NCBI RefSeq assembly: GCF_000382185.1
Contig: NZ_KB907784.1
Span: 930,001 to 994,000, forward strand
Length of the DNA stretch: 64,000 nt
Direction: 5' to 3'
Origin: Bordetella sp. FB-8
GTDB taxonomy: Bacteria; Pseudomonadota; Gammaproteobacteria; Burkholderiales; Burkholderiaceae_B
Both the position numbers and the translations under genes were made by a program. The notes under the pieces were generated by a model, which saw nothing but the letters and a program-made list of their open reading frames with translations, had not been told where the DNA came from and did no database searches. Numbering within the stretch: the stretch's first letter is position 1; every line of letters begins with the position of its first letter. Below, piece by piece: positions 34,496 through 51,920 of the stretch.

Positions 34496-34573
34496 CCAAT
34501 CTGTCTCAGCACCGGGCTTGCGGACCACAGTATGCTGATGCACAAGCGTTTTTGATTCTCGATCAACACTACT

Positions 34574-35295
34574 GGCTCTGTTGAATTTCAAGTGGGCTGA
34601 GGCGCGTGCGGGTTGATCGCCTCGATGAATCCATTGGTCTGACGGGTCCGCGCCCAGGCCACGATGCCCTCCATGTGACGGCGCACGAGGCCGGCGACTT
34701 CCTTCATCGGCTCGACCTTCGAGCGCATGACGCAGGTGCTCCAGTACTGCAGCATTTCGCGCATCACGTTGACCTGCTTTCGATCGAGAATCTCTCGCAA
34801 CTGCTCCTTGTAGAACCACGCCCGCGCGGTGCGCTTGAGGGTCGGCTGCGTGATCAGCTCGTGGAGCGCGGCGGCCGCCTCGGGCTTGAGGCTGTAGCTG
34901 TCCTTGAGCAGCGTCCAGCGCATGCCTTTGAGGGACTTGTCGGTGCGCTGTTCGATGCGCCGCGTCTTGTCGACAGCCGCATTCGCGTGCCCTATGACGT
35001 GGAACTTGTCGAAGGTGATGTGCGCGTTGGGCAGTTCGCTGCTCACGCCCTTGATGAAGGCCGGCGACATGTCGATGCTCACCGAGGTGATCTGTTCGGG
35101 CGGGCAGCCATGGGCCAGGAGATCGGCGGCCAGCGCTTCGATGGTCTTGGCGTTGCGCCCTTCGGTGACGAAGATCACGCGCCGGGCATCGGTATCGGCC
35201 GCCAAGGTCACGTAGCTGTGGCCGCGAGCGCGCGAGGTCTCGTCGATGGCCAGCGCCGTGACGTCGCTAAAGTCGGCCATTCCAAGGGCCATCTC
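34574..35295 (-). mobile_element. Truncated ISL3-family transposase with one terminal repeat
   Basis: A minus-strand frame (34588-35292) encodes the middle of an ISL3-type DDE transposase: SDVTALAIDETSRARGHSYVTL, ITSVSIDMSPAFIKGVSSELPNAHITFDKFHVI, RWTLLKDSYSLKPE and MRRHMEG-like IVAWARTRQTNGFIEAIN. Both ends are missing: the N-terminal zinc-finger part and the C-terminal part after FIEAIN. GGCTCTGTTGAATTTCAAGTGG at 34574 looks like the retained terminal repeat. The partner repeat is not found near 35295. Non-functional. Confidence 0.8.
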
Positions 35296-35296
35296 G

Positions 35297-35374
35297 ACGT
35301 AGCATGAGAAACGTCGCGCCCCAGAACATGGTGACTACGACAAGGGCCCATTCTTTTCGGTTGAGAAAGATCAT
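35297..35374 (-). pseudogene. 5' stub of an EamA/DMT-family transporter cut by the ISL3 remnant
   Basis: ATG 35374 opens MIFLNRKEWALVVVTMFWGATFLMLR, the first helix of an EamA (drug/metabolite) transporter, after which the sequence becomes IS-derived near 35297. The rest of the gene is absent on the far side of the IS. It is divergent from the XRE-cupin regulator at 35426, which it probably used to serve. Confidence 0.65.
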
Positions 35375-35399
35375 GCGATGGAACAGCGGATGATTTAAT

Positions 35400-35419
35400 A
35401 TGCGCAAAATACTGCGCAT
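35400..35419. promoter_or_regulatory. Inverted-repeat operator upstream of the XRE-cupin gene
   Basis: ATGCGCA-AAATAC-TGCGCAT, 7-bp perfect arms, lies between the divergent transporter stub and the regulator ATG at 35426. Likely the regulator's own binding site. Confidence 0.6.
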
Positions 35420-35425
35420 TACGAT

Positions 35426-35995
35426 ATGAGCAATAAACTGCACAGTCAAGCCGAAGGCACTGGCGTGCTCACGCACGTTGCCGGCAACCTGCGCCGTCTT
35501 CGCCAGCAGGCGGGAATGAGCCAGCTCGCGCTCGCGCAAGCGTCGGGCCTGAGCCGCCGGATGATCGTGGGCCTGGAGGCCGGCGAAACCAACATCAGCC
35601 TCTCCAATCTCGACAAACTCGCAGCCGCCCTCGGCACGAGTTTCGTGACGCTGGTCAGCGACCCCGAGGCCCAGAGCCAGCGGCTCGACGAACTGCTGTG
35701 GAAGGGACGCCGCAAGGAGAGCCGCGGCGTGTTGCTCGGTTTCGTGCCGGCCGCGCATGAGGCGCAACTTTGGTTCTGGAGCCTCGCGTCGGGGGAGCGG
35801 TATCAGGCCGAGCCGGACCCTCCCGGGTGGCACGAAATGATTTTCGTCGTCTCCGGAAGCCTGACTCTCGAACTCGAAGCCGAGACGATGGTGGTTCCGG
35901 CAGGAAAGTACGCCATCTATAGCAGCGCGCAAGCCTATGCCTACCGCAACGACGCAGATGCGCCGGTTGCCTTCGTCAGAAACGTGGTCGCCTGA
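35426..35995 (+). CDS. XRE-cupin transcriptional regulator
   Basis: A 189-residue protein with an XRE HTH (QQAGMSQLALAQASGLSRRMIVGLEAGETNISLSNLDKLAAALG) and a C-terminal cupin (PPGWHEMIFVVSGSLTLELEAETMVVPAGKYAIYSS). Members often repress a divergent amino-acid or metabolite exporter. Here the divergent EamA gene is destroyed, so the regulator may be an orphan. It shares architecture, but little sequence, with the regulator at 26572. Confidence 0.87.
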   Translation: MSNKLHSQAEGTGVLTHVAGNLRRLRQQAGMSQLALAQASGLSRRMIVGLEAGETNISLSNLDKLAAALGTSFVTLVSDPEAQSQRLDELLWKGRRKESRGVLLGFVPAAHEAQLWFWSLASGERYQAEPDPPGWHEMIFVVSGSLTLELEAETMVVPAGKYAIYSSAQAYAYRNDADAPVAFVRNVVA

Positions 35996-36277
35996 GATAG
36001 GGCCTGGCCCTCACGCTCGGGCGCCGCGCCGGCGCATCCATGCAATCCGGCGCGGGGTACGCGAACCGAGCGACGCCGAGGGCACCTCTATCAGAGTGTC
36101 CATCGCAGGCGAGATCCAGCGCCTGCCGTCAGAAAATCGACGCTGCCGGACAACTCATCGTTGCCTTTCGACACGCGCAATGCCGCCCGGCGAAGGCTGG
36201 AAAACTCCGCTCGGCGAGAAGCCGGCAGGTCGTTCGAACAAGGCGTGTGGTTCTGCAAGGCGCGAGCGAAGCCTGTC
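35996..36277. other. Intergenic stretch, no gene recognised
   Basis: 282 bp between the XRE-cupin gene and the converging lysE-type gene. Short open frames occur on both strands, but none has a recognisable domain or ribosome site. No strong terminator is visible. Confidence 0.5.
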
Positions 36278-37899: not shown

Positions 37900-38193
37900 A
37901 TCTGATGCGTCCGAAAAGACGGGGCAAGGCCATCCAGCACGGTCTCACTGTTCCGTGCGGCACACGACTGACCCGAGATACCCGCGGTAGAACTGCATGC
38001 CCTCGCGCACGTCCAGCTCGAGGGCAGTCGCATGGCTTGGCTGTGCGCGGTGATCGTATCAAAAATTTCCATCGCCGCCTGCGATGTGATCGAGCAGAAC
38101 CAGGAAAAATTTAAAGGGCTGGGATGGAGAGGGCTAGTGGACGGATGTCGAGCACACCCGCTCAGTTGCACCGGGTCTGCAGACCAAGTCTAT
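37900..38193. other. Intergenic stretch, possibly decayed coding DNA
   Basis: 294 bp between argP and the CDF gene. On the minus strand a readable segment SHATALELDVREGMQFYRGY is bounded by stops in the same frame. It looks like old coding sequence, but I cannot assign a family. Confidence 0.35.
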
Positions 38194-39162
38194 TCAACTT
38201 CTCTTGATGTGGATGGATTGAACCCAGGGATCATGATCCCCATCAGGCGATTGCCACGGGTCGACATGAGTCATCAGGTTCAGCACGCGATGGCGTTGCA
38301 GAACACGACTGCGGGCTTGGACGGCAATATCGTGACCGGCCTCGACGGTAATATCGGCATCAATCTCAATATGGGCGTCCACCACGATCATGTCGCCCAT
38401 TTTGCGTGTGCGGATATCATGGACGCCCCGCACCCCAGGCGTTTCCAGTAGGGTCTGGCGGATAGACGCCACCTCCTGCTCATCCACGGCCCGATCCATC
38501 AAGTCGTGCAGGGCGTCCCAGCTAAAGGACCAGCCCATCTTGACAATCATCCCCCCCACAACCAAGGCCGCGATGGGATCAAGTAGGGGATAGCCCAGTA
38601 AGTTGCCCGCGATACCGATGCCGACGACGAGCGACGACCCCGCATCCGAGCGCGCATGCCAGGCATTGGCCACCAGCATGCTCGACTTGACTCGCTTGGC
38701 AGCGGCCAGCATATAGCGAAACAACGACTCCTTGGCGATGAGTGCAAGACAAACCACCCATAGCGCCACGCTATGCACACGTGGTATTGCAGCGGGTTCT
38801 TTGAGCTTTATCAGGGCCGACCAGAACATGCCGACCCCTACGGCCAGCAGCAAGATGCCGATTACCAGTGAAGCAGCGGTTTCAAAGCGCTGGTGGCCAT
38901 ACGGATGGTCTTCATCGGCGTCTTTCTTGCCATGATGGCTGGCAACCAGCACGACACCGTCGGAGACGAGGTCGGACAGGGAGTGGATGCCGTCGGCCAC
39001 CAGGCCCTGCGACTTGGCGATGATGCCCACTGCGATCTGCGTGATCGTCAAACCTAGATTGACCCCTACGCTGACCCAGGTGCTGCGCGATGCCACCGCG
39101 GCACGCGCCTGCAGGGTCATCTGATCGGAGTCTTGGTCGTCTTCGGGTGTGTCGAAATGCAT
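38194..39162 (-). CDS. Cation diffusion facilitator (CDF) metal exporter
   Basis: A 322-residue CDF protein with six predicted helices. The transport site is formed by HSLSD (helix II) and HARSD (helix V), i.e. HxxxD pairs instead of the zinc-selective HxxxD/DxxxD. This composition is often seen in iron/manganese/zinc-mixed members; specificity stays open. The C-terminal domain (VHDIRTRKMGDMIVVDAHIEIDADITVEAGHDIA) is the cytoplasmic ferredoxin-like metal-sensing module. Confidence 0.93.
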   Translation of the reverse strand: MHFDTPEDDQDSDQMTLQARAAVASRSTWVSVGVNLGLTITQIAVGIIAKSQGLVADGIHSLSDLVSDGVVLVASHHGKKDADEDHPYGHQRFETAASLVIGILLLAVGVGMFWSALIKLKEPAAIPRVHSVALWVVCLALIAKESLFRYMLAAAKRVKSSMLVANAWHARSDAGSSLVVGIGIAGNLLGYPLLDPIAALVVGGMIVKMGWSFSWDALHDLMDRAVDEQEVASIRQTLLETPGVRGVHDIRTRKMGDMIVVDAHIEIDADITVEAGHDIAVQARSRVLQRHRVLNLMTHVDPWQSPDGDHDPWVQSIHIKRS

Positions 39163-39231
39163 GCGGTGCTCACGCTTGAAGTTAGCTCGGGTCGAAAGTC
39201 AGAAAATTTCCGCCATACCCCGTCGACGCGG

Positions 39232-39753
39232 TTATCGATGCAAATACACCGCCAAAAAGCAGGCGGTAGGCAGGTTTTTGATATTCGGCACCGTTGCCAT
39301 TTTTTGGTCCAGTCCATAGAGGTTCAGTCGCCCCGCATTGGCGCTTGCGCCCTCGTGGGAGGGCTCGCTCTCGATAACGAACGCCTTGACCGGATTCGCA
39401 CCACATGAAAGCATGACCTGCGGCTTATCCAGATTGACGACCCAGGCCGTCGCAGGTGCCACGGATGCGGCATCAAATGCACCGACAAACTGCACCGGAA
39501 TACGCCCCAACCGACCAAAACGCATCGCGATCGGCCCTCCCCCCGCGGCGGCTTTCCCGTCAACGTCCGTCATCTCAAGCTGCAGAGAACCGGTAACGTT
39601 CACTGCCGTCTGGCTGACGGGCTGCCACTGATACGCATCGGGCGATACGGTGCCATGCACAGTGGGAGCCGCCAAGGCAAGAGCAGGCGCGCAACAGCAC
39701 AGGACCAGCGCGGCGAAACGGACAAGGGAAAATCTCGGGAAGATGCGCTTCAT
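39232..39753 (-). CDS. Exported protein of unknown function
   Basis: A 173-residue protein with a clear signal peptide (FAALVLCCCAPALALA-AP). The mature part is beta-rich with two cysteines (MLSCGAN, PTACFLA) that could form a disulfide. No known domain recognised. ATG 39753 is used; a GTG three codons upstream is in frame. It is separated from the polysaccharide genes by 203 bp with no clear terminator, so co-transcription cannot be excluded. Confidence 0.6.
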   Translation of the reverse strand: MKRIFPRFSLVRFAALVLCCCAPALALAAPTVHGTVSPDAYQWQPVSQTAVNVTGSLQLEMTDVDGKAAAGGGPIAMRFGRLGRIPVQFVGAFDAASVAPATAWVVNLDKPQVMLSCGANPVKAFVIESEPSHEGASANAGRLNLYGLDQKMATVPNIKNLPTACFLAVYLHR

Positions 39754-39956
39754 GGTTACCACTGCCGGAGAATCAAGCCGTAATCATAACGGCCCCGCGC
39801 AAAGGCCTTCTGCCTTTCACGCCAGGGCGATCGATCTTGCCCTGACCGCGGGGGACATCACACCGATTGACCGAGCCCCAAGACGCCCCGCTGCGGCAGG
39901 CTTGGCAGGCCATACCTCAGCTTGATTTCCCCAATTTTCTTGGCTATCGCGCGCCC

Positions 39957-40820
39957 CTACCGCGTCTGATCCGCACGATTCCAGCTCATGGCCCAGGCAT
40001 ACATGGCCAGCAACATCACAAACTGCAGCAGCGTCGTCCCGATTAAATAGAAAAGAGGATTCCATAGCAGCGAGAACTGCAGCATGAGCATAGCGGCGAA
40101 GGTAAATTGCACGGGTGTCAGAATTGCCAAATAAAACAAGGCCATCACCGGCAAGGCGAACTTGCGCACCAGATTGAAGTTGAAGATGTTGTAGGTCAGT
40201 CCATAGAGCCAAGGCGTAATCAACATCAGTACGAAAGAGGATTGCATCATCGACGCCACGGATGCGCCGGCGCTATGCATGAAATTCCCACCCCAGAAAT
40301 AAAAGTAGACCTGGGCGACAGCCTGGAGCGTGCCGATGAATCGCGATATGTAGGCCAGCGGCAGCATGTTCGGCGACATGAAAACGGGGCCTATCAACAG
40401 CACCAGAGTCACCGCGAATCCACACCACCATTGCGCGGCGGTGGGCAAGGCGGCGTTCACCAGCGGGTAGGGAATATGCAATACGCTCCCCATTGCCATG
40501 TCCCGGTGCGCCAATGAAAAACCCGGGCCCAGCAAGCCTATCCAGAAGTTGATGATTCCTGTCCAGAGAACGTCGATCAATGGCCATGCCAGGTAGACGG
40601 CCGAACTCAGGACGGCAGGTATCACGATCATCGACAGCAGGCGCAAGGCCGTGAAATCGATATGAAGCAAGGCGCGATGGGTGCGTATCAGTACGCCACG
40701 AATGTTCAACAAACGGGGAGCCGTATGCGCCGTGGCACGCAGGATCGATGAACGCTGCGCCGCCGCGGCAGCGACCGCGGCACTGAGGCTTCTCGTGGAA
40801 GCTCTCCGGTTATTCGACAT
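39957..40820 (-). CDS. Polytopic inner-membrane protein, last gene of polysaccharide operon
   Basis: A 287-residue protein. The first 70 residues are basic and cytoplasmic; the remainder has five to six hydrophobic segments (for example FTALRLLSMIVIPAVLSSAVYLAW and FALPVMALFYLAILTPVQFTFAA). No family was recognised. It follows the YaiO-type gene by 54 bp on the same strand. By context it may be an accessory or export partner of the synthase. ATG 40820 is chosen over ATG 40847. Confidence 0.6.
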   Translation of the reverse strand: MSNNRRASTRSLSAAVAAAAAQRSSILRATAHTAPRLLNIRGVLIRTHRALLHIDFTALRLLSMIVIPAVLSSAVYLAWPLIDVLWTGIINFWIGLLGPGFSLAHRDMAMGSVLHIPYPLVNAALPTAAQWWCGFAVTLVLLIGPVFMSPNMLPLAYISRFIGTLQAVAQVYFYFWGGNFMHSAGASVASMMQSSFVLMLITPWLYGLTYNIFNFNLVRKFALPVMALFYLAILTPVQFTFAAMLMLQFSLLWNPLFYLIGTTLLQFVMLLAMYAWAMSWNRADQTR

Positions 40821-40874
40821 AAATGACTCCGCTAAGGCGATTGACAATCTATGGAAGGACTACGACATCGCGCG

Positions 40875-41738
40875 CTATCGAAAGCTCCAACGCCAGCCGA
40901 TATTGATTGATTTGTCGGAATAGCTGGGGTTTTTGTAGTACCCCAGGCCGATGATCAATAAACTGCCACGCGTTATCCGCTCATGCCATTGCACCGAGAT
41001 ACTGTTGCTCATGTAGTCGACTTTCTGCGTTCCGGTGGTCAGGATCTGATAGGTCTCCTTGGCATGTTCCAGGCGAACGACGATGGCGCGCCGATCGTCG
41101 CTGCCGAATGTGGCGGCCAGGTATTCGCTCGGACCGAATGCGTTGCCGGGATTGGCAACGTTGCCGCGCAAGCCGCCCTCCAGAACAAAACCATTGCCGT
41201 AATAGATCCCGCTAAGTACCAGCCCTTTGTCCGACCGGCCCGCCTGGTTTCCCTCGGCAAAATAAGTGCCCAGGCCAACGACATATTGCCGCTGTGCGCC
41301 GAATTTTTGGTAGCCGGCAAGGTCGATGCGTGCCTCGGGAAACAAAAGACTGCCGCCTGCGCCGACCCCCACCATCATGTAGTTGTCGGGCGATAGATCG
41401 TGCGTCAGACTTATGTCGCCATAAGAGCCGGAAAATCCAAAGCGCGATTGCCTGAGGGCCTCTTCCTGCAGCACGCCGAAATCCGTCACTTGTATGCCGC
41501 GCAAAGAGTAGGACCTGGCCACGCCGTAACCGGCGTCATAACTGCCAAAGCCGGTCATCAATTCGACGGCCGATTTTTCAGGCGGCATGACCACTGCGGG
41601 CGGACTTCCCTGCAGCGGAACGGAATGACTCTGCTGCGCCGCCGCCGATGCCGCCAGCACCAGGCCCGTGCCGAGCAATGCGCCGTTCACGCAATAGATA
41701 AATCGGCGCCGCAAGGCGTAAGACATGGATAGGCTCAT
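40875..41738 (-). CDS. YaiO-family outer-membrane beta-barrel
   Basis: A 287-residue protein with signal peptide (to about residue 35, SAAAQQ) and alternating amphipathic strands ending in IGWRWSFR, with the C-terminal aromatic residue typical of BAM substrates. Strand pattern and length fit the YaiO family, which E. coli encodes beside a GT2 gene (yaiP). Within this operon it is the best candidate for the outer-membrane exit pore or anchor of the polymer. Confidence 0.72.
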   Translation of the reverse strand: MSLSMSYALRRRFIYCVNGALLGTGLVLAASAAAQQSHSVPLQGSPPAVVMPPEKSAVELMTGFGSYDAGYGVARSYSLRGIQVTDFGVLQEEALRQSRFGFSGSYGDISLTHDLSPDNYMMVGVGAGGSLLFPEARIDLAGYQKFGAQRQYVVGLGTYFAEGNQAGRSDKGLVLSGIYYGNGFVLEGGLRGNVANPGNAFGPSEYLAATFGSDDRRAIVVRLEHAKETYQILTTGTQKVDYMSNSISVQWHERITRGSLLIIGLGYYKNPSYSDKSINIGWRWSFR

Positions 41739-41768
41739 TGATTTTTTCTCATGAATTTTTTGGCGGAT

Positions 41769-42794
41769 CTATTCAGCTGCCCGTTTCGTGGCATGCGGTT
41801 TGAGCTTATTGTCCAGGCCAAGCCTGACCCCCTCCTCCATGATGTTCCAGCGCCCTTGCGCTTTCCATCGCGTTGCGTTGTGCAACCAGGCAAGCGCGCT
41901 CTTCTTGTCTCCTGACTTATAGGCCGCCCAGGCGATCAGGCCCCAGGGGTAATAATCCACATCACCGGCCAGCCATTGCGCACCGTACTTTTTGCGCCAG
42001 CTTTGCCAGTCGTGCTGCCGCGCCCGGCCCGTACGCACGTCGTAGATCAAAGGGTAGATGGGGGCGACCGCATAGGGATAAAAAGCGTAGGGCGTGGGCG
42101 GCATGCTCGCGGCCGTCGGTTCCAGCGTCTGGTCTGGGTTGTATCCATAATTGCGCTGCAACGCGGCCAGCATGGTTTCCTGGCTCGGCAACTTGGCAAG
42201 CACACGGGCATGGCGCCTGGACATTGCGCGATTGGCGCGTAGGCGTCGCAAGATGGCCATTACCTCTACGTTGTCGGCGAAATAGGCTCCGGGCTGTCCA
42301 AAGACGGCACGGAAGGTTTGCCTCTGCGGATCCCACAAGGTTTCCAGGTTATCCAGGGCCTTGTCGCAGCTTGCATCGAGTTCCCGGTGCGTGGGAAGTA
42401 TGTCGCTTCCGAGCGCGCACCAAAGTACCGCCAGCGAGTCGTCCGCATCGCTCGGACCGCACGCCAGCCAGAGGTTTCCCCCACTACGACAGATGCGTGG
42501 AAACGGGCCATTCGCCTGTTGGAACTGCACTATCCATTTACTGAAGGTTACCGCCTGACTACGCACGTCAACGCCCAGGCTGTGAGCCACGAGCAGCGCT
42601 TTGATCGCGGAGTAAGGCTCGACATAGTCGCCTTTTTGAAAGACGGTCAATGCCCCATTGGCCATGATGAAATCGGCAAACGGCGTCTGCCTTGCAGCGG
42701 CCGGCGCAGCGGGCAGCACGCTGCAGAACAGGACGAAAACCAATGCGCGGCCTGCAAATTTAATTTCCAAACGCAATCTCCTCGAAGACGACAT
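41769..42794 (-). CDS. Exported alpha/alpha-toroid-like protein, possible glycan hydrolase or lyase
   Basis: A 341-residue protein with a signal peptide ending near AAARQ. The mature chain is helical and repetitive, with motifs such as SKWIVQFQQANGPFPRI, CGPSDADDSLAVLWCAL and VDYYPWGLIAWAAYKSGDKKSALAWLHNA, reminiscent of six-hairpin glycosidases (GH8/lyase-type barrels). The DADDSLA segment recalls the catalytic DAD region of BcsZ-type GH8 enzymes, but identity is too low for assignment. Its start overlaps the previous gene by 35 bp. Probably a periplasmic polymer-trimming enzyme. Confidence 0.6.
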   Translation of the reverse strand: MSSSRRLRLEIKFAGRALVFVLFCSVLPAAPAAARQTPFADFIMANGALTVFQKGDYVEPYSAIKALLVAHSLGVDVRSQAVTFSKWIVQFQQANGPFPRICRSGGNLWLACGPSDADDSLAVLWCALGSDILPTHRELDASCDKALDNLETLWDPQRQTFRAVFGQPGAYFADNVEVMAILRRLRANRAMSRRHARVLAKLPSQETMLAALQRNYGYNPDQTLEPTAASMPPTPYAFYPYAVAPIYPLIYDVRTGRARQHDWQSWRKKYGAQWLAGDVDYYPWGLIAWAAYKSGDKKSALAWLHNATRWKAQGRWNIMEEGVRLGLDNKLKPHATKRAAE

Positions 42795-43842
42795 ACGCAC
42801 TGTCTTGTGTGGTCACGACGCCGTGGATGACGACCCCTTGGGCAACAATCAGCTTTCGGCAAATGACCGTCGTGGGCGTGGCGGCGCTGCCGACGACAGA
42901 ATTTGGACCGATGATGATGTCATCCTCGCTGATAAGCGGCCCGAGGATGGCGCAGCCGGCGCCGATGACTATGCCTCTTGCGGAAATCACGCTGCCTGAT
43001 ACGCTGACATTCTCATGCAGCCGCAAGAAATCATGCGCTTTTATGCTCCCGCGGACGACGCTTCTCGCGACAACCTGGGCAGATCCTCTGACGACGAAAT
43101 CGCCGTCGCAAGGCATTTCGTCTGAAATCGTTGTGTCGCCATCCAGCAGATACCGTCTGCTGCTCGGAGCGGACAACGGCTGGACCGGTGGGGCGCTGAT
43201 ATGGGCATCGTCGCTTTCCCCGAAGTAGAGGGTCGGCGCGCCAGCGCGGACGAACTGGGTATTGTCGGAAAACCGTATGCTGTCCAGGGCGGTTATCCGT
43301 CCATGGACGATCAAGTCGCGGCCGGCCACGATGGTCTGGGCGTCGGCCCATCGGTGAATGAGCACATTCTGCGCCAGCCGCATATTCCCTGCCGAACAAC
43401 ATGCGCGCAGTTGCACGCCCGATCCGACCTGGATGTCCCGCACTGCATAGATGTCCGCCTGCGTCTGGCAATTGGCCGCGATCCGCGCCTCGTCCGCAAA
43501 GATCGCAATATGCGCGAGCCGGCCTACCTCCTCCAATTCAAAGCCTGTTTCCAATACATCAAGGCCGTCGCCATCATGCAATAGGGTGACCTGCGCGCCG
43601 TTGTGGAACAAGGTCTTGCCGATGCGATGAAGTTCGTCGCGCGTGGGCGCGGACCCGAGAAGATGGTCAATCAGCTTGCGAAAGGAGTCGGCAAAATGAC
43701 GCAGTTCATGCGTCGCATTCTGGTCGATGGGAAGCGGCGCATCATCCGTTGGAACAAGCCACTCCCGCAGCGTCGGCAAGAACGGCAGCACGATGAGCGC
43801 CATGGCCGTGAAAAATAGGCCCAGCTGCGAAATGGGATTCAT
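42760..43842 (-). CDS. Membrane-anchored beta-helix (polymer-forming/bactofilin-like) protein
   Basis: A 360-residue protein with one N-terminal transmembrane segment (LGLFFTAMALIVLPFLPTL), a helical region to about residue 100, then about 230 residues of short repeating beta strands with small residues and V/I ladders (for example VVRGSAQVVARSVVRGSIKAHDFLRL and ISARGIVIGAGCAILGPLISEDDIIIG). This resembles hexapeptide or bactofilin-like beta-helices. It overlaps the synthase stop in ATGA. A scaffold for the synthase complex is one possibility; an acyltransferase is less likely because no catalytic His was seen. Confidence 0.6.
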   Translation of the reverse strand: MNPISQLGLFFTAMALIVLPFLPTLREWLVPTDDAPLPIDQNATHELRHFADSFRKLIDHLLGSAPTRDELHRIGKTLFHNGAQVTLLHDGDGLDVLETGFELEEVGRLAHIAIFADEARIAANCQTQADIYAVRDIQVGSGVQLRACCSAGNMRLAQNVLIHRWADAQTIVAGRDLIVHGRITALDSIRFSDNTQFVRAGAPTLYFGESDDAHISAPPVQPLSAPSSRRYLLDGDTTISDEMPCDGDFVVRGSAQVVARSVVRGSIKAHDFLRLHENVSVSGSVISARGIVIGAGCAILGPLISEDDIIIGPNSVVGSAATPTTVICRKLIVAQGVVIHGVVTTQDSAYVVFEEIAFGN

Positions 43843-45299
43843 GGCTTGCGGGTCTCCGATGTAGCGGTCACATCCATATCGGAGTCCGGCTTCAAGGCAA
43901 CTGTCTCGACATCCGCGGCACGGGTCTCGATGGTCACGCGACGAAAGCGCTCCGTCTTGTGCCAGGTCAGCTCCTTGCGCCGCAGATAATCGACTAGCTG
44001 ACTTAATGCGGCCTTGGATATCGTCACCATGCTGATGAGAAAGCCCAACATCGAGAAGGGCAGAAGGCGTATGCGGTTGCGATTGCCATCCAGGTAAGTA
44101 GCCGCCGCGATTTCAAAAAACGCCGCGTTGGTCCCCAATGCGCCGTAGGCCAGCAGTGCGGAAAAGGCCAACCATCCGAGGACCCAGTACTGGGGAGAAA
44201 TGAAGAACAAGGCGGTCGCCAGCATCCACCCCAGGATCAGGACCGGCGACATCATGAATACGCCCAGCAAAAGGGCGCCGTCCAGCCTTTCCCGGAATCG
44301 AAGATCGCCGTTCAATACCAGCCTGATGAGGTTTTTCATCAGAACCTGATTATGTCCGCGTGACCAGCGACTGATCTGGCCGATGCGCATCCGCCATGTC
44401 TGGGGCACTTCCTCGTAGCATTCGGATCGATTCTGATAAACCGTCTTCCAGCCGTTTTGCAAAAGTCGAAACGTGATGTCCGTGTCTTCGGCGAGCATAT
44501 CGATGTCCCAGCCACCGACTTCATTGAGCGCCCGCTGGCGCACCGCGCCGACCGTCCCGCCATATTGCGGAACCAGTCCTAGATTCATGCGCGCGGCCTG
44601 GTCGACCTGGTATCCGCCCGCCCGTTCCAGATCCAGCAGTCGTGTCAACAAGTTATGCCCTACATTCAAGGGCACGACACGGCCCATGACGGCTCCGACC
44701 TCCGGATCGAATAAGGGCGCGACAAGTTGCTTGATCAGGCCTCGCGCCGGCAGGTAATCCGCGTCGAAAATGACGATCACTTCCACATTGATCATGGCCG
44801 TGGCATCTTTTAGCGCGGCCGCCTTGCCGGGGCGCCCCTGGTCACGATGAAACGGGTGCAGCCGGCCTGGATTGGCGGCGGCGATCCGGTCGATGATCGT
44901 CCGCGTTTTGTCGCTGGATCGGTCATTGACCGGCATGATGATCAGCTTTTCGTGCGGGTAGTCGACTTCCAGCAGGGCCGTCAGCGAGTCCGAAATGACC
45001 TGTTCTTCATTATGGGCGGCAACAAAGATGACGACGTCAGGCCAGTTTCCCATCTCGATATCGAGATAGGGCTGACGTTGCCGCCCGAACAGGCGCGCAA
45101 GGGTGAACACATAATGGCGCGTTGCAAAGATGACCAGCAAGAGCACGATCGCCGCGAGCAGCCACGTCATCATACGGATCGGCAACGGGTTCCCAAGCGA
45201 CGGGGCGGCTTGGACGATCTGGCTCTGTGCGAAGGCCAGCATCGGGAACGCGCTCAAGAGCGCCATGACCGCCGTTGCCTTGCGAGAAAGGGGCATCAT
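43839..45299 (-). CDS. Processive family-2 glycosyltransferase (polysaccharide synthase)
   Basis: A 486-residue membrane synthase. Two N-terminal hydrophobic segments precede the GT2 domain with D (VNDRSSD, about 122), DAD (about 175), AEDTD (about 267) and QISRW (about 308). The QxxRW motif marks processive enzymes such as BcsA, PgaC and NfrB. Four C-terminal helices follow and then a 55-residue soluble tail; no PilZ or MshEN c-di-GMP domain is visible. It starts 1 bp after the wecB stop, so UDP-ManNAc is the suggested donor. Confidence 0.88.
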   Translation of the reverse strand: MMPLSRKATAVMALLSAFPMLAFAQSQIVQAAPSLGNPLPIRMMTWLLAAIVLLLVIFATRHYVFTLARLFGRQRQPYLDIEMGNWPDVVIFVAAHNEEQVISDSLTALLEVDYPHEKLIIMPVNDRSSDKTRTIIDRIAAANPGRLHPFHRDQGRPGKAAALKDATAMINVEVIVIFDADYLPARGLIKQLVAPLFDPEVGAVMGRVVPLNVGHNLLTRLLDLERAGGYQVDQAARMNLGLVPQYGGTVGAVRQRALNEVGGWDIDMLAEDTDITFRLLQNGWKTVYQNRSECYEEVPQTWRMRIGQISRWSRGHNQVLMKNLIRLVLNGDLRFRERLDGALLLGVFMMSPVLILGWMLATALFFISPQYWVLGWLAFSALLAYGALGTNAAFFEIAAATYLDGNRNRIRLLPFSMLGFLISMVTISKAALSQLVDYLRRKELTWHKTERFRRVTIETRAADVETVALKPDSDMDVTATSETRKP

Positions 45300-45300
45300 G

Positions 45301-46467
45301 TCATGCCGCCTGTTCCACGATCTCTTGCTCGATCGATGGCATGAACTCCCTTGTCGCGCGCCCCATGAGCGTATCGACTATGCGTTCGCAAGCCAATCCA
45401 TCCCCATACGGATTGGTCACTTGGGAAATTTGAAAATAGTGCGCTGGCTGGTCATAAAGTCGGGTGACCGCCGCGATGATTTGTTCCGCGTTCGTCCCCA
45501 CCAACTGCACCGTGCCCGCGCTGACCGCCTCCGGGCGTTCGGTCACCTCGCGCATGACCAGAACCGGTTTTCCCAGCGATGGCGCCTCTTCCTGCACACC
45601 GCCGGAATCGGTAAGAATGACGTGGGCCCGCTGCATCAGTCTCACAAAGCACAGATAGTCCAGTGGGGCGATCAAATGCACATTCTTGAGTCCTGACAAA
45701 ATTCTGTTGACCGGCTCCTGCACATTCGGATTCAGATGGACTGGATAAACGATTTCTATGTCCTTGCGCCGCGCGAGCACTGCGAGCGCGTTGCAAATTC
45801 CGAGAAATCCATCGCCAAAATTTTCACGCCGATGACCGGTGACAAGCAGCAGCTTGCGGCTGGGATCAAGCGACGGCAGTCCGGCGTTGACTCGGGCGGC
45901 AAGCCGGGGATCGTCGTTGAACCGCTGGACGGTCATTTCCAGGGCATCGATGACCGTATTGCCGGTCACGACGATGCGGCCCTGGAGGTTTTCCAGCTTC
46001 AGGTGCTCGCTGGCTCCGGCTGTCGGAACGAGCAGCAAATCCGATACCACGTCGAGTACGCGGCGGTTCATCTCTTCCGGCCATGGCTGCGACAGATCTC
46101 CGGTGCGCAAGCCGGCTTCCACGTGCGCGACGGGAATGCGGCGATGAAACGCGGCAAGACCGGCAATGGCCGCGGTCGTCGTGTCGCCATGCACCAGTAC
46201 GCGGTCGGGATTGACGCGCGCCAGGATCGGATCAAGCGTGGAAAAAATGCGGGAGCCTACGCTGTTGAGCGTCTGGTTGGCCGCCATGATGTCCAGATCG
46301 TAATCGGCGATGATCTCGAACACGTCCATCACTTGCTGCAACATGCTCCGATGTTGCCCGGTCACGCATATCAGCGATGTGACGCCGCTCTCCAGAGCGA
46401 GCTTCTTGACCAGCGGGGCCATTTTTATGGCTTCAGGACGTGTTCCAAATATCGACAGTATTTTCAT
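45301..46467 (-). CDS. wecB: UDP-N-acetylglucosamine 2-epimerase (non-hydrolysing)
   Basis: A 388-residue epimerase converting UDP-GlcNAc to UDP-ManNAc. Family blocks: KILSIFGTRPEAIKMAPLVK, VLVHGDTTTAAIAGLAAFHRRIPVAHVEAGLRTGD, TGHRRENFGDG and ILTDSGGVQEEAPSLGKPVLVMREVTERPE. No UDP-ManNAc dehydrogenase (wecC) is next to it, so the product is likely used as ManNAc, not ManNAcA. First gene of the minus-strand polysaccharide operon. Confidence 0.95.
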   Translation of the reverse strand: MKILSIFGTRPEAIKMAPLVKKLALESGVTSLICVTGQHRSMLQQVMDVFEIIADYDLDIMAANQTLNSVGSRIFSTLDPILARVNPDRVLVHGDTTTAAIAGLAAFHRRIPVAHVEAGLRTGDLSQPWPEEMNRRVLDVVSDLLLVPTAGASEHLKLENLQGRIVVTGNTVIDALEMTVQRFNDDPRLAARVNAGLPSLDPSRKLLLVTGHRRENFGDGFLGICNALAVLARRKDIEIVYPVHLNPNVQEPVNRILSGLKNVHLIAPLDYLCFVRLMQRAHVILTDSGGVQEEAPSLGKPVLVMREVTERPEAVSAGTVQLVGTNAEQIIAAVTRLYDQPAHYFQISQVTNPYGDGLACERIVDTLMGRATREFMPSIEQEIVEQAA

Positions 46468-46630
46468 TTCCTAGCCTATGAAGTCTCGACTTCGGCATGC
46501 GAATTCGCTGCATCTTGAAAGTAGGATGAGCTGAATTGATGCACCGATGATGCGCGGCTCAATCTACGCCAGAACTTTCTTGAATCTTGTTCTGTACCGT
46601 ACATTCGGCATGAGAACCGGCGATAAATCG

Positions 46631-47905
46631 TCAATTTCCCGAGGAGGCCGAGTCCACATCCAGGCCATAATTCGCGGCGATGCTGACAATCGAAGCGGGT
46701 CTGGGAACCTCTTGCATGTCGACTACGCGGTCGCGTCCCTGCATCTTGGCTGCGTAGAGCGCCGCATCCGCGCGCGCAAGCAGTTCCAGCAACGTGTCGC
46801 CATGGCGATATTGGTCCACACCCGCGGAGAAGGAATAATGCTGCGGCGGCGCATCTTGCGCGTCGACCGAAGTCTTGCGTCGGTCCAACCTCGCCCGCTC
46901 CCGCAGCCCCTCCATGCGCGAACAGGCATCCTGCCTGTTGGCTTGCGCGAACAGAATCGCGAACTCTTCGCCGCCCACCCGACCGAATACATCGGTCTCG
47001 CGCAGGTTGGCCCTGGACAGCCGGCCAAAGTGCGCAAGCACGCAGTCCCCCGCGGCATGACCGTATTGATCATTGATCAACTTGAAATGATCCAGATCGA
47101 CGACCGCAACCGACAGCATCGCCCCCGAAGCGGCCGCGTGCTCGATCATTTCTTGCGCCTTCGCGAAAAATCGGCGCCGGGTCACCGCGCCCGTCAGCTC
47201 GTCTACGTTTGCCCAGCGTTCGAACTGCTCGGTCAGGCGTTCATGCACGAGCATTACCATGCCCATCGACAGGCCCGGCAGCGCAAGCATGCCCACAATG
47301 GGAAACGCCATGTTGGGTGCGGCCGATTGCATCAGGCTGCCTTGCCGCAGCAAAGCGATGCCATAGAAGAGTCCGCGGATCACATGGCCCAGTACGCTGA
47401 TGCCGGCGATCGCCACAATGAAGCAGCAGCCGTAGAGGGATCGCGTTGGCGCGCGATGCTTCCATGCTATCCAGCCGATACTGGCGTGTATAGAGGCATA
47501 GAAGATGGAAACGATGACGATGCAGGCATTCCTATCCGGAAATGTATAGGTCCAATAGGCAAGACCGAGCACAAGTGCGGCGCAGCCGGCGTATGGCAAT
47601 ACCGTTACGGTACGCAGATGGAAAAATTGCCGGCAACCCTCATACCCCAATACGCTGGCAAGAGCCAGCAGCAAGTTGGCCACGATGACCGACAAGACGG
47701 GAGGCAGGCCGTGCTCAAGCGCAAAGAGCAGCAAGGCAGCGATGGCCATCGCGTTGGCGCCTATCCAGCGGGGGACACCTCGGACGGTCGAATGCCGCAG
47801 CGAGCCGGAAATCACCATGCTCATCACGGTGACGAGCACCATGGCGACGACCAGGATGCTGACCGGATTCAGGACGGCTGTCACGGAAGGGACCGGTTTG
47901 CGCAA
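46631..47905 (-). CDS. Membrane diguanylate cyclase (GGDEF)
   Basis: About 424 residues: six or seven transmembrane helices (about 15-220), then a GGDEF domain. The active site is GRVGGEEF (about residue 312), and the inhibitory I-site RETD lies five residues before it, so product feedback is expected. The start is uncertain: TTG 47905 or GTG 47884 in this frame. A frame starting ATG 47951 (MKRFLKKHIHAM...) runs into the region in another phase and may be the true N-terminus if one base is miscalled or a frameshift occurred. It precedes the polysaccharide operon by 163 bp. Confidence 0.88.
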   Translation of the reverse strand: MRKPVPSVTAVLNPVSILVVAMVLVTVMSMVISGSLRHSTVRGVPRWIGANAMAIAALLLFALEHGLPPVLSVIVANLLLALASVLGYEGCRQFFHLRTVTVLPYAGCAALVLGLAYWTYTFPDRNACIVIVSIFYASIHASIGWIAWKHRAPTRSLYGCCFIVAIAGISVLGHVIRGLFYGIALLRQGSLMQSAAPNMAFPIVGMLALPGLSMGMVMLVHERLTEQFERWANVDELTGAVTRRRFFAKAQEMIEHAAASGAMLSVAVVDLDHFKLINDQYGHAAGDCVLAHFGRLSRANLRETDVFGRVGGEEFAILFAQANRQDACSRMEGLRERARLDRRKTSVDAQDAPPQHYSFSAGVDQYRHGDTLLELLARADAALYAAKMQGRDRVVDMQEVPRPASIVSIAANYGLDVDSASSGN

Positions 47906-48012
47906 GCCGCGGCAGCATGGCGTGAATGTGCTTCTTCAGGAACCGCTTCATACGGTCTCAAGAAGCGCCGCCTGCCCTTGGGGGCAGGGTTGCCGGCAGG
48001 CGAGATCGCGGA

Positions 48013-48207
48013 CTAGGGCTTCTTGCCCGCGATGCTCGTATCCCTACCGGTTTCCGGCATTTCCGCCTGGGAGAATGGAAGTTTTCCCGGTCGTTGCGCA
48101 ATGCCGGCCTGCGCCCGACTCGTAGTGCGCCCGGCTGATTTTCCAAAGGAATTCTTGGCCTGGCCGTCCTGTGTCACGGCATGGTCCTTCACTTGGTTCT
48201 CGTGCAT
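48013..48207 (-). CDS. Small hydrophilic protein, 64 aa, unknown
   Basis: A 64-residue frame (MHENQVKDHAVTQDGQAKNS...) with an excellent AAGGAG site 7 nt before ATG 48207. The sequence is polar, lacks a membrane segment and has no recognised domain. Upstream, 248 bp to the protease gene hold no other gene and probably the promoter. The ribosome site is the main reason to believe it is real. Confidence 0.5.
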   Translation of the reverse strand: MHENQVKDHAVTQDGQAKNSFGKSAGRTTSRAQAGIAQRPGKLPFSQAEMPETGRDTSIAGKKP

Positions 48208-48455
48208 GCGATTGCTCCTTGGTCCGGGATCCGGATGGATGTTCATGTCTGAATGCGAACCATGACATCGCCCGGATGCCTGGTCGGTCCGCTAGCGTGC
48301 ATTGCAAACATGCCCAGGCAATCTGCAGTCTGACTTGCCTGTAACAAAGAGAGCGGGTTCGAACAGCCGCTGCGACGATTTTGCGATTCCGTCCAGACGA
48401 TGATTCGATGCCCAGCCCTCAAAGGCGGGAATCTTCATCCGCGCATCAGGCCTGC

Positions 48456-49487
48456 CTAACCAGCCTCAGGGACGGAATCCGTCAACACCATCAGGGCATC
48501 GGCATACCAAGCGCAGTTCAGGCCAAGCGACTCATCTTCCATCAAGTCACGCGAACTCATGTCCATGCGCGTGGAGTGAATCCCGAGCAGCTGCCACGGT
48601 TGCAGCGAGGAGCCGCTGCCATGGCCTGCGACACGGCGCCGTAGGACCGGAGCGCCGCTACTGCCACGGTGGGTCCTGGCATCGGTCAGGAAATAGCCTT
48701 GTTGCTGAAAGCGCACGCCATAGGCCGACGCAATGGATGCGCTGCGGGCAACGGCAAGGTGGTGCACGGTGTCGTGGAACCCCAATGGAAAACCGATGAC
48801 CGTCAGATTGTCCCCTATCGCTACGTCCTCGCCTTGAAGATCGAGATGTGACGTATCGAATGCCTGCAGCTGCACGCCTTCGGGCAAGCGGCTGGTCTGG
48901 ATTTCGATGACGGCGATATCGACCGGGCCGGCCGTGTCGACTGCCTGTCGCCACAGCGCGAGGCCTTTGTCATACAGAGGCATCGAGAAGACCGTGTATC
49001 GCGTCAGATCGCTTGCATCGGTGTGTAGCTCGATTTCGATACGATCTGGAAAATGTCCGCTTGGGTCGTCGACAAGAACATGCCGATTCGTCACCAGGAA
49101 CAACCGCTCGTCGCGGCGAAAGAAAAAACCGCTTGCGCCTGTCGAGAGATGCGACCCGGCATAGGTGCTGATGTGCGTGGTGGTCAGCAATACCGCCTCG
49201 ACGGCATGGCAGGGATCCACTGTATTTTTTGTCGATGCAAGCCTGCAAAGCACTGCGCGAGTCTTGCCGACATCGTGTTCGAATGTGGCGAGCACAAGAT
49301 CCGAAATATCGCTGTTCAGCATGATTGTCCGAGCCGCTTCTGCGTGGGCTTCGAATGAACGCGCCAAAGTGTCGAGACAGGCCGGCGGCAGCACTTCCAG
49401 TACTGCCGGGAGCAAGGCATCCACTGCGATTAGGCTTCCCTTGATCTGGCAGATACGCTCGGTGGCTTCCAGCAGATTCTTCATCAC
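48456..49487 (-). CDS. Trypsin-like serine protease domain protein, no signal peptide
   Basis: A 343-residue protein. The first 110 residues are helical and without hydrophobic signal. The remainder is a chymotrypsin-fold domain with His in VTNRHVLVDD (about 134), Asp in GPVDIAVIEI (about 189) and Ser in HRGSSGAPVL (about 277), an intact triad. HtrA-type PDZ domains are absent. Cytoplasmic trypsin-like domains of this sort occur in bacterial conflict and stress systems. No obvious partner lies next to it. Confidence 0.7.
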   Translation of the reverse strand: MMKNLLEATERICQIKGSLIAVDALLPAVLEVLPPACLDTLARSFEAHAEAARTIMLNSDISDLVLATFEHDVGKTRAVLCRLASTKNTVDPCHAVEAVLLTTTHISTYAGSHLSTGASGFFFRRDERLFLVTNRHVLVDDPSGHFPDRIEIELHTDASDLTRYTVFSMPLYDKGLALWRQAVDTAGPVDIAVIEIQTSRLPEGVQLQAFDTSHLDLQGEDVAIGDNLTVIGFPLGFHDTVHHLAVARSASIASAYGVRFQQQGYFLTDARTHRGSSGAPVLRRRVAGHGSGSSLQPWQLLGIHSTRMDMSSRDLMEDESLGLNCAWYADALMVLTDSVPEAG

Positions 49488-49496
49488 ATAAGCCTT

Positions 49497-49526
49497 AAAA
49501 ATAGAAAGCGCGGATGAACCGCGCTT
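49497..49526 (-). terminator. Intrinsic terminator of cspA
   Basis: Read on the minus strand: AAGCGCGG-ttcat-CCGCGCTT followed by TCTATTTTT. It lies between cspA and the downstream protease gene. Confidence 0.85.
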
Positions 49527-49577
49527 CGGGACAGAATATTTGCAGGCTAGGCAGCCAAACCGCTGCCTTTGCGGGCC

Positions 49578-49790
49578 TTAACCCACGCCACGAATATTGG
49601 AGGCTTGAGGACCCTTGGTCCCCTGGGTGACCTCGAACTGCACGCGCTGGTTCTCGGTCAAGGTCTTGAACCCGCCCTCCTGGATCTCACGGAAGTGGGC
49701 AAACAGATCCTTGCTGCCATCGTCGGGGGCAATAAAGCCGAAGCCTTTGCCTTCGTTGAACCATTTCACGGTTCCAGTTTGTGTCGTCAT
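49578..49790 (-). CDS. Cold-shock protein (CspA family)
   Basis: A 70-residue OB-fold RNA chaperone. RNP1 is KGFGFI and RNP2 reads DLFAHF instead of the common VFVHF. ATG 49790 is the family start. The 269-bp upstream spacer has no gene and could contain the long 5' leader expected for cold-shock mRNAs. Confidence 0.95.
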
Positions 49791-50059
49791 GTCGATTCCT
49801 TTGCAAGCTACCCCGATGCAAAAGCGCATCCGGAGCGAAGAGATGCCAAGAAAATCATCAAGAGCACTTTGACACCACTGCCGGATCGGAACCCAGACGA
49901 GGAGGAAAAGACCGATGCGACGGCCTTGCACATATCAACTTCTTCATACTACACGTCTTAAGCAAGCCGTGCGGCTTTCTGAAAATATATTTCCCGTGGC
50001 TTGTCAAGAGCTTGCGCCCACAACGGCGCGATTGCCGCCCGCGTTGTTCGCCATGCCTG

Positions 50060-50899
50060 TCAATGAGACATCAACACCGGGACGGTCATGGATTTCAATA
50101 TGGTGCGGGTGACGCCACCCAGGAACAGTTCGCGCCAGCGGGCGTGCCCATAGCAGCCCATCACGATCATGTCGGCGCCGAAATCGGCAGCGCGCGACAA
50201 TAGCAAGTTGCCGTTGGAAATATCGCGCACGCCGTCGATTTCTTCGATTACGACATTTGCGCCGTGCTGCGCGACGGCGGCTGCGATCTGGCTCCCGTCA
50301 ATGCGAGGAGCGTCGATTTCTGCGGAGGAGGCATTGATGCTGAAAACGACCACTTTCCTGGCCTGGACAAGAAAGGGCAGTGCGTCGTGCACCGCCCTGC
50401 TCGCCTCGCGGCTGCCGTCCCAGGCAACGCAAACCGTGCCGCCGATCTCCGGAAACCGGCCTGCGTAAGGCACCACCAATACGGGGCGCCCGCAGGAGAG
50501 GATCAGGTTTTCAATGAATTGATCCGCGATGAACGACTCGCGATCGTCCTGATCGTACTGGCCCGCGATGACCAAGTCGGCCAGCCGGGCGGCCCTGGGC
50601 ATCACCAGATTGGGAGGGAGTCTGGAGAAATTCCAGTCGCCATCGATCCCCGTGCGCGCAAGCGCCTTGCGAAACATCGACTCCTCCGCCTCCTGGTATT
50701 CGGCCCGCAGCATTTCGCTGGCGTAACGGTACTCGGGCGGCTTGGTGATCATGCTGAGCGGTTCGACAGCCGGCTGGAATACGTTAAATAGCCCTGTCAA
50801 GCGCGCATTGAAGCGCTTGGAGACATAGAGCGCGGCTTCGACGCGCTGCGACATGGCCTTGCTTGCATCGAGATGCACAAGGATGTTCTGGTAGTCCAT
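50060..50899 (-). CDS. Tandem universal stress protein (UspA family)
   Basis: A 279-residue protein with two Usp folds. The N-terminal domain begins NILVHLDASKAMSQRVEAALYVSK; the C-terminal domain ends with GCYGHARWRELFLGGVTRTIL, the G-x2-G-x9-G(S/T) ATP-binding signature. An FNR/ANR-type box lies about 90 bp upstream, consistent with induction under low oxygen, as for several Usp genes in Pseudomonas and Bordetella relatives. Confidence 0.92.
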   Translation of the reverse strand: MDYQNILVHLDASKAMSQRVEAALYVSKRFNARLTGLFNVFQPAVEPLSMITKPPEYRYASEMLRAEYQEAEESMFRKALARTGIDGDWNFSRLPPNLVMPRAARLADLVIAGQYDQDDRESFIADQFIENLILSCGRPVLVVPYAGRFPEIGGTVCVAWDGSREASRAVHDALPFLVQARKVVVFSINASSAEIDAPRIDGSQIAAAVAQHGANVVIEEIDGVRDISNGNLLLSRAADFGADMIVMGCYGHARWRELFLGGVTRTILKSMTVPVLMSH

Positions 50900-50981
50900 G
50901 TTGGCGGCTCCGGTGAAATTGAACGACAGGCATGGTCTGCAGGCCTTGAAAGCAAGGATAGGAGCGCGCGGGCCATTTCGA

Positions 50982-50995
50982 TTGAGTCAGATCAA
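50982..50995. promoter_or_regulatory. FNR/ANR-type box upstream of the Usp gene
   Basis: TTGAGTCAGATCAA matches TTGAT-N4-ATCAA in nine of ten positions. Its centre is about 90 bp before the Usp ATG, allowing a start site near 50947 with the activator at about -41. Confidence 0.65.
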
Positions 50996-51061
50996 AACAT
51001 GCGCAGATAGCCACCCAAATCGGATAAGAGCGCCCCGAAGGCAACGCGGGGACCCGATTTT

Positions 51062-51787
51062 CTACGACAGATATTGCCCGCCGTTGGCCGAGAAAGTCGC
51101 ACCGGTGATGTAGTCATTGTCTTCGCGCGCCAGGAAGGCGACGAGCCGGGCGATGTCTTCGGCGCGGCCGAGCCGCCCGACCGGGATCGCGGCGACGATG
51201 GCCTTGATCACCTCGGGCTGAACCGCCACGACCATATCGGTATCGCAATACCCGGGCGCAATGGCATTGACCGTGATGCCCCGAGCGGCGTTCTCCAGCG
51301 CCAAGGCCCGGGTGAACCCGAGTATTCCGGCCTTGGAAGCCGAATAATTGGTCTGGCCGAACTGCCCCTTCTGGCCGTTGATCGAGCTGATGTTGACGAT
51401 GCGCCCGTACCTGCGCTCGCGCATCCCCTCGATGACGTGTCGGCACATATTGAAATGCGAATCCAGGTTGGTGCGCAGCACCTCCTGCCATTGCGCCAGA
51501 CTCATTTTGTGCAGCGCGGCGTCCCGCGTAATGCCGCCATTGTTGACCAGAACGCCGATCGGCCCCAGATCATGCTCGACCTGCTCGACGCCGGAACCGC
51601 AGGCCTCGAAATCGGAGATATCCCACCGATAGACGGGAATGCCGGTTTGCGCATGAAAACGCTCGGCTTCGGTGTCGTTGCTGTGATAGACGGCAACGAC
51701 ACTGTGGCCTGCCTGTTGCAGCGCGATCGAGGTCGCGCGTCCCAGGCCGCGCGTGCCGCCGGTAACCAAGGCGATGTGCTTGTTCAT
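51062..51787 (-). CDS. phaB: Acetoacetyl-CoA reductase (PhaB-type SDR)
   Basis: A 241-residue short-chain dehydrogenase. NADPH loop TGGTRGLGRATSIALQQAGH; NGGITRDAALHKMSLAQWQEVLRTNLDS is diagnostic for PhaB; the catalytic Ser/Tyr/Lys are in NISSINGQKGQFGQTNYSASKAG. It makes (R)-3-hydroxybutyryl-CoA for polyhydroxybutyrate. AGGAG precedes ATG 51787. phaA and phaC are not in the window. An ANR-like box lies upstream. Confidence 0.92.
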   Translation of the reverse strand: MNKHIALVTGGTRGLGRATSIALQQAGHSVVAVYHSNDTEAERFHAQTGIPVYRWDISDFEACGSGVEQVEHDLGPIGVLVNNGGITRDAALHKMSLAQWQEVLRTNLDSHFNMCRHVIEGMRERRYGRIVNISSINGQKGQFGQTNYSASKAGILGFTRALALENAARGITVNAIAPGYCDTDMVVAVQPEVIKAIVAAIPVGRLGRAEDIARLVAFLAREDNDYITGATFSANGGQYLS

Positions 51788-51920
51788 GAGAACTCCTAAA
51801 GCCCGCCCCGTCAGGCGGGAGACGGTCGACAGCGCGCAGCGTTTTTCGGGTCCCGCCACGCCGGGCAAAGGGCGAAATCACGCTACGACATAATCATGAA
51901 CGGCCGATGGCCACATCGCA

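Follow-up and report, generated by a model that had tools for sequence, protein, structure and literature searches.

Few synthase-dependent exopolysaccharide systems of Gram-negative bacteria have known parts, namely those for cellulose, poly-N-acetylglucosamine (PNAG), alginate, Pel and the Nfr glycan. The export proteins BcsC and PgaA bear tetratricopeptide repeats (TPR), and PgaB of the PNAG system and PelA of the Pel system remove N-acetyl groups. The present work concerns a six-gene operon of Bordetella sp. FB-8, located in a stretch of 64,000 nucleotides (contig NZ_KB907784.1, positions 930,001 to 994,000; hereafter the window), which most likely encodes a little-noticed surface-polymer system that builds and secretes a slime-like sugar polymer. 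In the Nfr pathway of Escherichia coli, UDP-N-acetylmannosamine (UDP-ManNAc) made by WecB is the proposed substrate of NfrB, and NfrA is a TPR-bearing outer-membrane exporter, according to passages of PMC8669469 and PMC8669472; a passage of the latter also describes an Achromobacter cluster of nfrA, nfrB, wecB and a BcsB homologue, which is a different set from that of the present operon. An earlier, sequence-only reading of the window had named no described system with exactly this gene set, and none was found in open papers (subscription papers lay mostly outside the search). Among open papers naming both YaiO and exopolysaccharide, none was on the present subject, as judged by title and the start of the abstract; in the excerpted text of PMC8594841, yaiO occurs only in a mutant list. 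No open paper was found that combines YaiO with bactofilin or uses 'YaiO family' phrases.

The operon was delimited by calling the open reading frames (ORFs) of the window, and its domains, motifs, gene order and conserved linkage were computed. Six head-to-tail ORFs, all on the minus strand, span positions 46467 down to 39957 and are of the kinds that the sequence-only reading had listed, with the short overlaps and gaps it had described. The first, wecB (45301-46467), encodes a non-hydrolysing UDP-N-acetylglucosamine (UDP-GlcNAc) 2-epimerase, the product of which is UDP-ManNAc. It is followed by a processive family 2 glycosyltransferase (GT2) synthase (43839-45299), a membrane-anchored, bactofilin-like beta-helix protein that is a proposed scaffold (bhx, 42760-43842), a secreted toroid-glycosidase-like protein (tor, 41769-42770 from the likelier TTG start, the ORF being extendable to 42800), a YaiO-family outer-membrane beta-barrel that is a proposed exit pore (40875-41738) and a polytopic membrane protein of a family without a name (mem, 39957-40820 from the likelier ATG start, extendable to 40847). 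With the likelier starts, wecB and the synthase gene are separated by 1 nucleotide, the synthase gene overlaps bhx by 4 and bhx overlaps tor by 11 (35 or 41 if upstream starts are used), and gaps of 30 and 54 nucleotides separate tor from YaiO and YaiO from mem.

The conservation of this arrangement was examined in a collection holding one genome per species, which was scanned with an alignment of five synthases (A3); the best 80 of at least 508 relatives were kept, and looser kin may behave otherwise because these loci are the best matches to the window synthase. Profiles built from five seed loci, and then retrained on their matches, served to find the other genes. Two seed loci (L026 and L055) are among the 80, and rows L011 and L012 duplicate them. 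Many contigs are short, and 50 of the 80 loci (one of them a seed locus) were classed as well-flanked, having 6.5 kb or more of flanking sequence on each side. Across all 80 loci, bhx was found in 80, mem in 74, YaiO in 72, wecB in 67 and tor in 51; a core of synthase, bhx, YaiO and mem was present in 72, and all six genes in 43. The corresponding counts for the 50 well-flanked loci were 50 each for bhx and mem, 49 for YaiO and for the core, 46 for wecB, 37 for tor and 35 for all six. In the well-flanked loci, bhx, mem and YaiO lie on the strand of the synthase gene wherever they are present, wecB is on the opposite strand in 6 of its 46 occurrences, and gene order varies among lineages. The six genes form a conserved system, a real operon with a conserved core.

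The linkage was also examined without the synthase in the search, by running the tor and mem profiles over 399 genomes of the order. Matches to tor were found in 8 genomes and to mem in 7, all of the latter being among the former (hypergeometric P = 2.6e-14, a value that ignores kinship and was obtained with profiles trained on cluster members). The training sets of both profiles include the window, G007, G016 and G103, and that of tor also includes G078; G234, G285 and G367 are new to the tor profile, and G234 is apparently the source of L084, which the mem profile includes. The eighth tor genome (G078) contributes a 5.4-kb contig that ends within wecB. All five added loci or copies carry the cluster: G367 has two full copies (L126 and L127), and L128 and L129 are among the others. 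That the six genes are chance neighbours is scarcely credible, since the core stays together in eight phyla despite changes of gene order, and tor and mem coincide in the set of 399 genomes; no point was found in favour of this explanation. These counts bear out the proposal of the sequence-only reading that the genes form a separate synthase-type operon and travel together.

The synthase matches Pfam GT2 families, and a sequence search of the Protein Data Bank (PDB) also places it in GT2. Its D179-A180-D181, E271-D272, Q308 and R311-W312 (the DAD, ED and QxxRW motifs) are invariant in alignment A3, in keeping with the processive GT2 recognized by the sequence-only reading, and the window protein has four hydrophobic segments, which flank the GT2 domain on both sides. 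Such motifs (DxD, ED and QxxRW) together with membrane segments are taken here to be the marks of a processive GT2 synthase, and this one feature of a synthase-dependent exopolysaccharide system is present. The best NCBIfam model is PgaC_IcaA, at 135.3 bits against a cut-off of 422.3, and PgaC, 34% identical over 250 residues, is the nearest named relative; the CelA model scores 74.9 bits against 699.1. In the reverse test, in which a profile of the present synthases was applied to named proteins, PgaC scored 135.8 bits, BcsA 76.3, YaiP 62.9 and NfrB 16.7. These scores point to a separate branch of GT2 synthases. Synthase homology to the PNAG system, which the sequence-only reading would have counted against its proposal, is therefore present in part: PgaC is the nearest named kin, yet the synthase is far under the PgaC cut-off. 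One further GT2 match, a distant one at 27% identity, lies in the window genome.

Homology to the Nfr synthase was not borne out. The score with the NCBIfam model of NfrB is 8.4 bits, where the cut-off is 1170, and NfrB falls far below PgaC in the reverse test. The linkage of wecB, a GT2 synthase and an outer-membrane protein is common to both systems, to go by passages of PMC8669472 and PMC8669469, but the operon is very unlikely to be a version of the Nfr (N4 glycan receptor) pathway: besides these scores, no PilZ or other c-di-GMP-binding domain was matched on the synthase in a Pfam scan, and the barrels scanned matched no TPR family. A search of the window genome for NfrB, run without a positive control, came back empty.

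The identity of the sugar was approached through wecB. The gene product matches TIGR00236 at 449.9 bits (cut-off 210.15) and shares 57% identity with E. coli WecB across 369 columns. A second WecB-like protein of the window genome is 35% identical, and its gene was taken, from the look of the surrounding ORFs, to sit in an O-antigen-type cluster. A search of the 84 loci and of 20 kb of the window with E. coli WecC, the UDP-ManNAc dehydrogenase, gave no homologue at E ≤ 1e-5. The file searched contained no positive control, but with this query three homologues were obtained from other parts of the window genome. As wecB lies in the cluster and no WecC homologue was found nearby, ManNAc itself appears to be favoured over its uronic acid (ManNAcA), and the polymer is probably fed by UDP-ManNAc, these two observations being the sole grounds for naming ManNAc. 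A GlcNAc-based, PNAG-like polymer, with WecB serving elsewhere or giving ManNAc as a minor sugar, would agree with the position of PgaC as the nearest named synthase, with the absence of wecB from 4 of the 50 well-flanked loci, and with the deacetylase-like gene of many relatives (described below), which is compatible with any N-acetylhexosamine polymer. However, it is considered unlikely, given the shortfall against the PgaC_IcaA cut-off, the presence of wecB in the other 46 clusters and the lack of similarity between the deacetylase-like protein and PgaB (a weak test).

The scaffold candidate, bhx, scores 23.3 bits against the Bactofilin family PF04519 in the window, under the cut-off of 27.9. 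Of 20 members of its family, 17 match PF04519 at E ≤ 0.01 and 19 have an N-terminal hydrophobic segment; a PDB sequence search returned nothing significant. Bactofilins position envelope enzymes at particular sites, and bhx was found in all 50 well-flanked loci, on the strand of the synthase gene. It could be, then, that the product is a local surface glycan for attachment or for an appendage, positioned by bhx, rather than a bulk biofilm exopolysaccharide. This is held to be improbable, as the window protein falls under the Bactofilin cut-off, the charges do not decide on which side of the membrane bhx lies, and no adhesin or anchor gene was recognized among the conserved set.

The barrel protein matches PF19413 at 56.6 bits (cut-off 23.9) and TIGR04390 at 129.1 bits (cut-off 32). 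The 22 YaiO proteins scanned comprised that of the window, those of 19 relatives, one from the E. coli copy of the system and E. coli YaiO; PF19413 is matched by 21 of them and a different barrel family by the remaining one. Neither the six window proteins nor, at E ≤ 0.01, the 22 YaiO proteins gave a match to any TPR family, so that no TPR-bearing export protein like BcsC, PgaA or NfrA was detected among the proteins scanned, the neighbouring genes of the relatives lying outside the scan. The barrel is a candidate for the exit pore. The window mem protein matches no Pfam or NCBIfam family. Alignment A9 comprised 73 of 79 mem rows, leaving out L040, L042, L048, L060 and two plasmid rows, and one weak match to a domain of unknown function (E 0.0099) was found among the 73 members. 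None of its 65 database homologues has a Pfam domain or a functional name. It is proposed that mem acts with the synthase and that bhx acts as a scaffold. In L060 (11068-12756), a 561-residue ORF labelled mem by profile was apparently also counted as YaiO, which may reflect a fusion or an assembly effect. The profile searches that the sequence-only reading had called for thus confirmed the families of wecB, the synthase and YaiO; bhx stayed under its cut-off, tor gave a chance-level match and mem none.

The tor protein has a hydrophobic N-terminus; its one Pfam match is at chance level (E 0.1), and NCBIfam gives none. Alignment A8 comprised 54 of 60 tor rows, leaving out four second tor-like genes and two plasmid rows; in these 54 sequences Y53, W79, D108, D111, D166, E169, Y231 and P232 are invariant, four of them acidic. 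Among the 120 of 132 matches listed for the tor profile, one protein has the MGH1-like glycoside hydrolase domain PF22422, another is named as a glucosidase family protein, and most of the rest are without a name; toroid families were matched weakly, each in 1 of the 54 members. A PDB sequence search found nothing significant, and a scan of viral contigs no match. These features suggest that tor is likely a glycosidase, and it may trim the polymer. The possibility that tor is a GH8 enzyme like BcsZ was not supported, hhalign showing no similarity to a single BcsZ sequence (a weak test). A second, more distant tor-like gene occurs near the cluster in L025, L051, L061, L084 and L129.

Many relatives carry a seventh gene, which is seen only in them and so lay outside the view of the sequence-only reading. 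It encodes a protein of some 620 residues that is secreted and weakly matches polysaccharide deacetylase. Of 85 rows, 44 contain the gene, as do 37 of the 50 well-flanked loci; 45 of the 50 have either tor or the deacetylase-like gene, and 29 have both. Both copies in G367 (L126 and L127) are complete seven-gene sets. The gene was not found in the window genome, in a search with no positive control, and Pfam identified no deacetylase family in the window operon. An alignment of 28 members shows H365 and W363 without exception and H360 almost without exception, within an HGGWxH motif that would suit a metal deacetylase. Searched against the PDB, the profile matched a polysaccharide deacetylase best, at a non-significant E of 0.044. 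The presence of the gene in 37 of the 50 loci was counted in favour of an N-acetylated sugar.

The core was found in at least one locus each of eight phyla: Pseudomonadota, Acidobacteriota, Gemmatimonadota, Rhodothermota, Thermodesulfobacteriota, Bacillota (Sporomusa), Candidatus Firestoneibacteriota and Candidatus Eiseniibacteriota. Phylum labels are those of the record titles, many of them for metagenome-assembled genomes, placed on a tree of 85 synthases; only the grouping was used, because the tree was of a quick type and its outgroup branches were very long. One 7-kb contig (L082) bears the label Corynebacterium but falls among Comamonadaceae, which probably reflects misbinning. Profile searches did not find tor in the loci of Acidobacteriota, Gemmatimonadota, Rhodothermota and Eiseniibacteriota, or wecB in those of Sporomusa, Firestonebacteria and Eisenbacteria. 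One acidobacterium has a gene for a GH38 alpha-mannosidase (L029, 5082-8585) upstream of the cluster, on the opposite strand.

The system was also found on plasmids, 2 of 72,556 records matching the synthase at E ≤ 1e-100. The conjugative plasmid pRHB18-C04_2 of Escherichia fergusonii (602.9 bits to the synthase profile) carries bactofilin, wecB, YaiO, mem, acyltransferase, tor and GT2 genes, and a Cupriavidus megaplasmid (761.6 bits) carries all six genes and the seventh. The chromosome of E. coli NCTC8623 has the E. fergusonii plasmid's order, bactofilin-wecB-YaiO-mem-acyltransferase-tor-GT2 (L131, 8669-15580); the set is near fimbrial, uracil-DNA glycosylase and UvrD-helicase genes. When the plasmid set was run by megablast against 5426 complete E. 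coli genomes, two gave matches, which covered 14% of the query with 72% identity, and one of these genomes was inspected; the count is a lower bound, because this mode needs close DNA.

In the window, the G+C content of the operon is 58.3%, against 64.0% for the remainder. The tor and mem profiles, in the searches over the order, gave no match in 12 other genomes of the same family; one of these (G176) has an 18-bit stray match to the single window tor sequence, with none of the operon genes around it. The low G+C content and the failure to find tor and mem in same-family genomes suggest that the operon was gained horizontally. Low G+C content (0.565-0.608) extends over 38000-52000, a stretch exceeding the operon, and 32000-36000 is also low (0.584-0.606), most of the window being at 0.61-0.69. 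A scan for promoters and terminators did no better than on shuffled sequence (1 promoter-like site against a mean of 3.9, and 11 terminator-like sites against a mean of 8.5). A gene for a GGDEF-domain diguanylate cyclase (46631-47905, minus strand) adjoins wecB upstream. It was rejected as a part of the system, and lies outside the conserved set, because only 12 of 84 rows of relatives have a GGDEF match.

On balance, the operon is probably a stand-alone, synthase-dependent exopolysaccharide system of an unnamed family. In the proposed mechanism, WecB would convert UDP-GlcNAc to UDP-ManNAc, and the inner-membrane GT2 synthase would polymerize the sugar and move the chain across the membrane, probably with mem. 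The bactofilin-like bhx would organize the synthase machinery, secreted tor would trim the chain in the periplasm, and the YaiO-type barrel would let it out. In many relatives, as opposed to the window operon, the secreted deacetylase-like protein may strip N-acetyl groups in the manner of PgaB or PelA. A more specific proposal is held only tentatively, and with some doubt: that this is a distinct machine of double-membraned bacteria, occurring on plasmids as well as chromosomes and in at least eight phyla, which makes a ManNAc homopolymer, is organized by its own bactofilin and exports the chain through a small YaiO barrel without TPR, the product being in part polymannosamine where the deacetylase-like gene is present.

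Several observations weigh against these proposals. A failure of the genes to travel together, which the sequence-only reading would have held against its own proposal, did not occur, although tor is missing from 13 of the 50 well-flanked loci, and in 5 of the 50 the deacetylase-like gene is missing as well. All six genes were seen together only in Pseudomonadota and in one locus of Thermodesulfobacteriota (L093). The system is rare: of the 399 genomes searched for the order, 8 have tor, and of 398 searched for the phylum, 4 have it, all of them from this same order. PgaC, the nearest named synthase, makes poly-GlcNAc, and some clusters lack wecB, as noted above. A polysaccharide may not fit through the small YaiO barrel, which could instead be an enzyme or a receptor. 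The deacetylase-like call is weak, with PF01522 matched in 6 of the 10 proteins scanned (of which that of L031 proved not to be a member of the family and that of L093 is a partial member) and a best score of 24.0 bits against a cut-off of 23.1. Likeness of this protein to PgaB was not supported, hhalign showing no similarity to one PgaB sequence. The hhalign negatives for BcsZ and PgaB are weak, because one reference was used for each and the same method missed the relation between the YaiO proteins of the window and of E. coli.

If the proposed system is real, it would make a new surface polymer and possibly a new phage receptor, with a four-gene core in eight phyla, including in E. coli. 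It would also be a test case for polymer exit without a TPR export protein and for a bactofilin-like partner of a polysaccharide synthase, and the mem and tor families would gain a predicted function.

By the tests made, the system is a member of none of the Pga, Nfr and Bcs families. It resembles PgaABCD of E. coli in having a GT2 synthase of the same superfamily, an outer-membrane barrel and, in many relatives, a secreted deacetylase-like protein, but its synthase is far under the PgaC cut-off and its barrel is of the YaiO type; to our knowledge, wecB, bhx, tor and mem have no Pga counterpart. With NfrA, NfrB and WecB of E. coli it shares UDP-ManNAc from WecB as the proposed precursor and an inner-membrane GT2 with an outer-membrane protein, whereas its synthase is not NfrB-like, with no c-di-GMP-binding domain matched, and its YaiO-type barrel has no TPR found. 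Cellulose operons likewise combine a GT2 synthase (BcsA) with a secreted glycosidase (BcsZ), but the present synthase lies under the CelA cut-off with no PilZ matched, and the weak hhalign test showed no similarity of tor to the single BcsZ sequence. The E. coli yaiS-yaiP-yaiX-yaiO locus (L104, 6070-10617; L111, 2980-6191) has wecB, tor and mem unmatched, and YaiP reaches 62.9 bits to the synthase profile; yaiX is interrupted by IS2 in K-12. The window YaiO could not be aligned with E. coli YaiO by BLASTP or hhalign, though domain models relate both, and hhalign relates bhx to YaiX over 65 columns at a probability of 63%. With a PIG-L deacetylase, a GT2 (YaiP), an LbetaH protein (YaiX) and a YaiO barrel encoded side by side, the yai locus looks like a smaller cousin of the present system.

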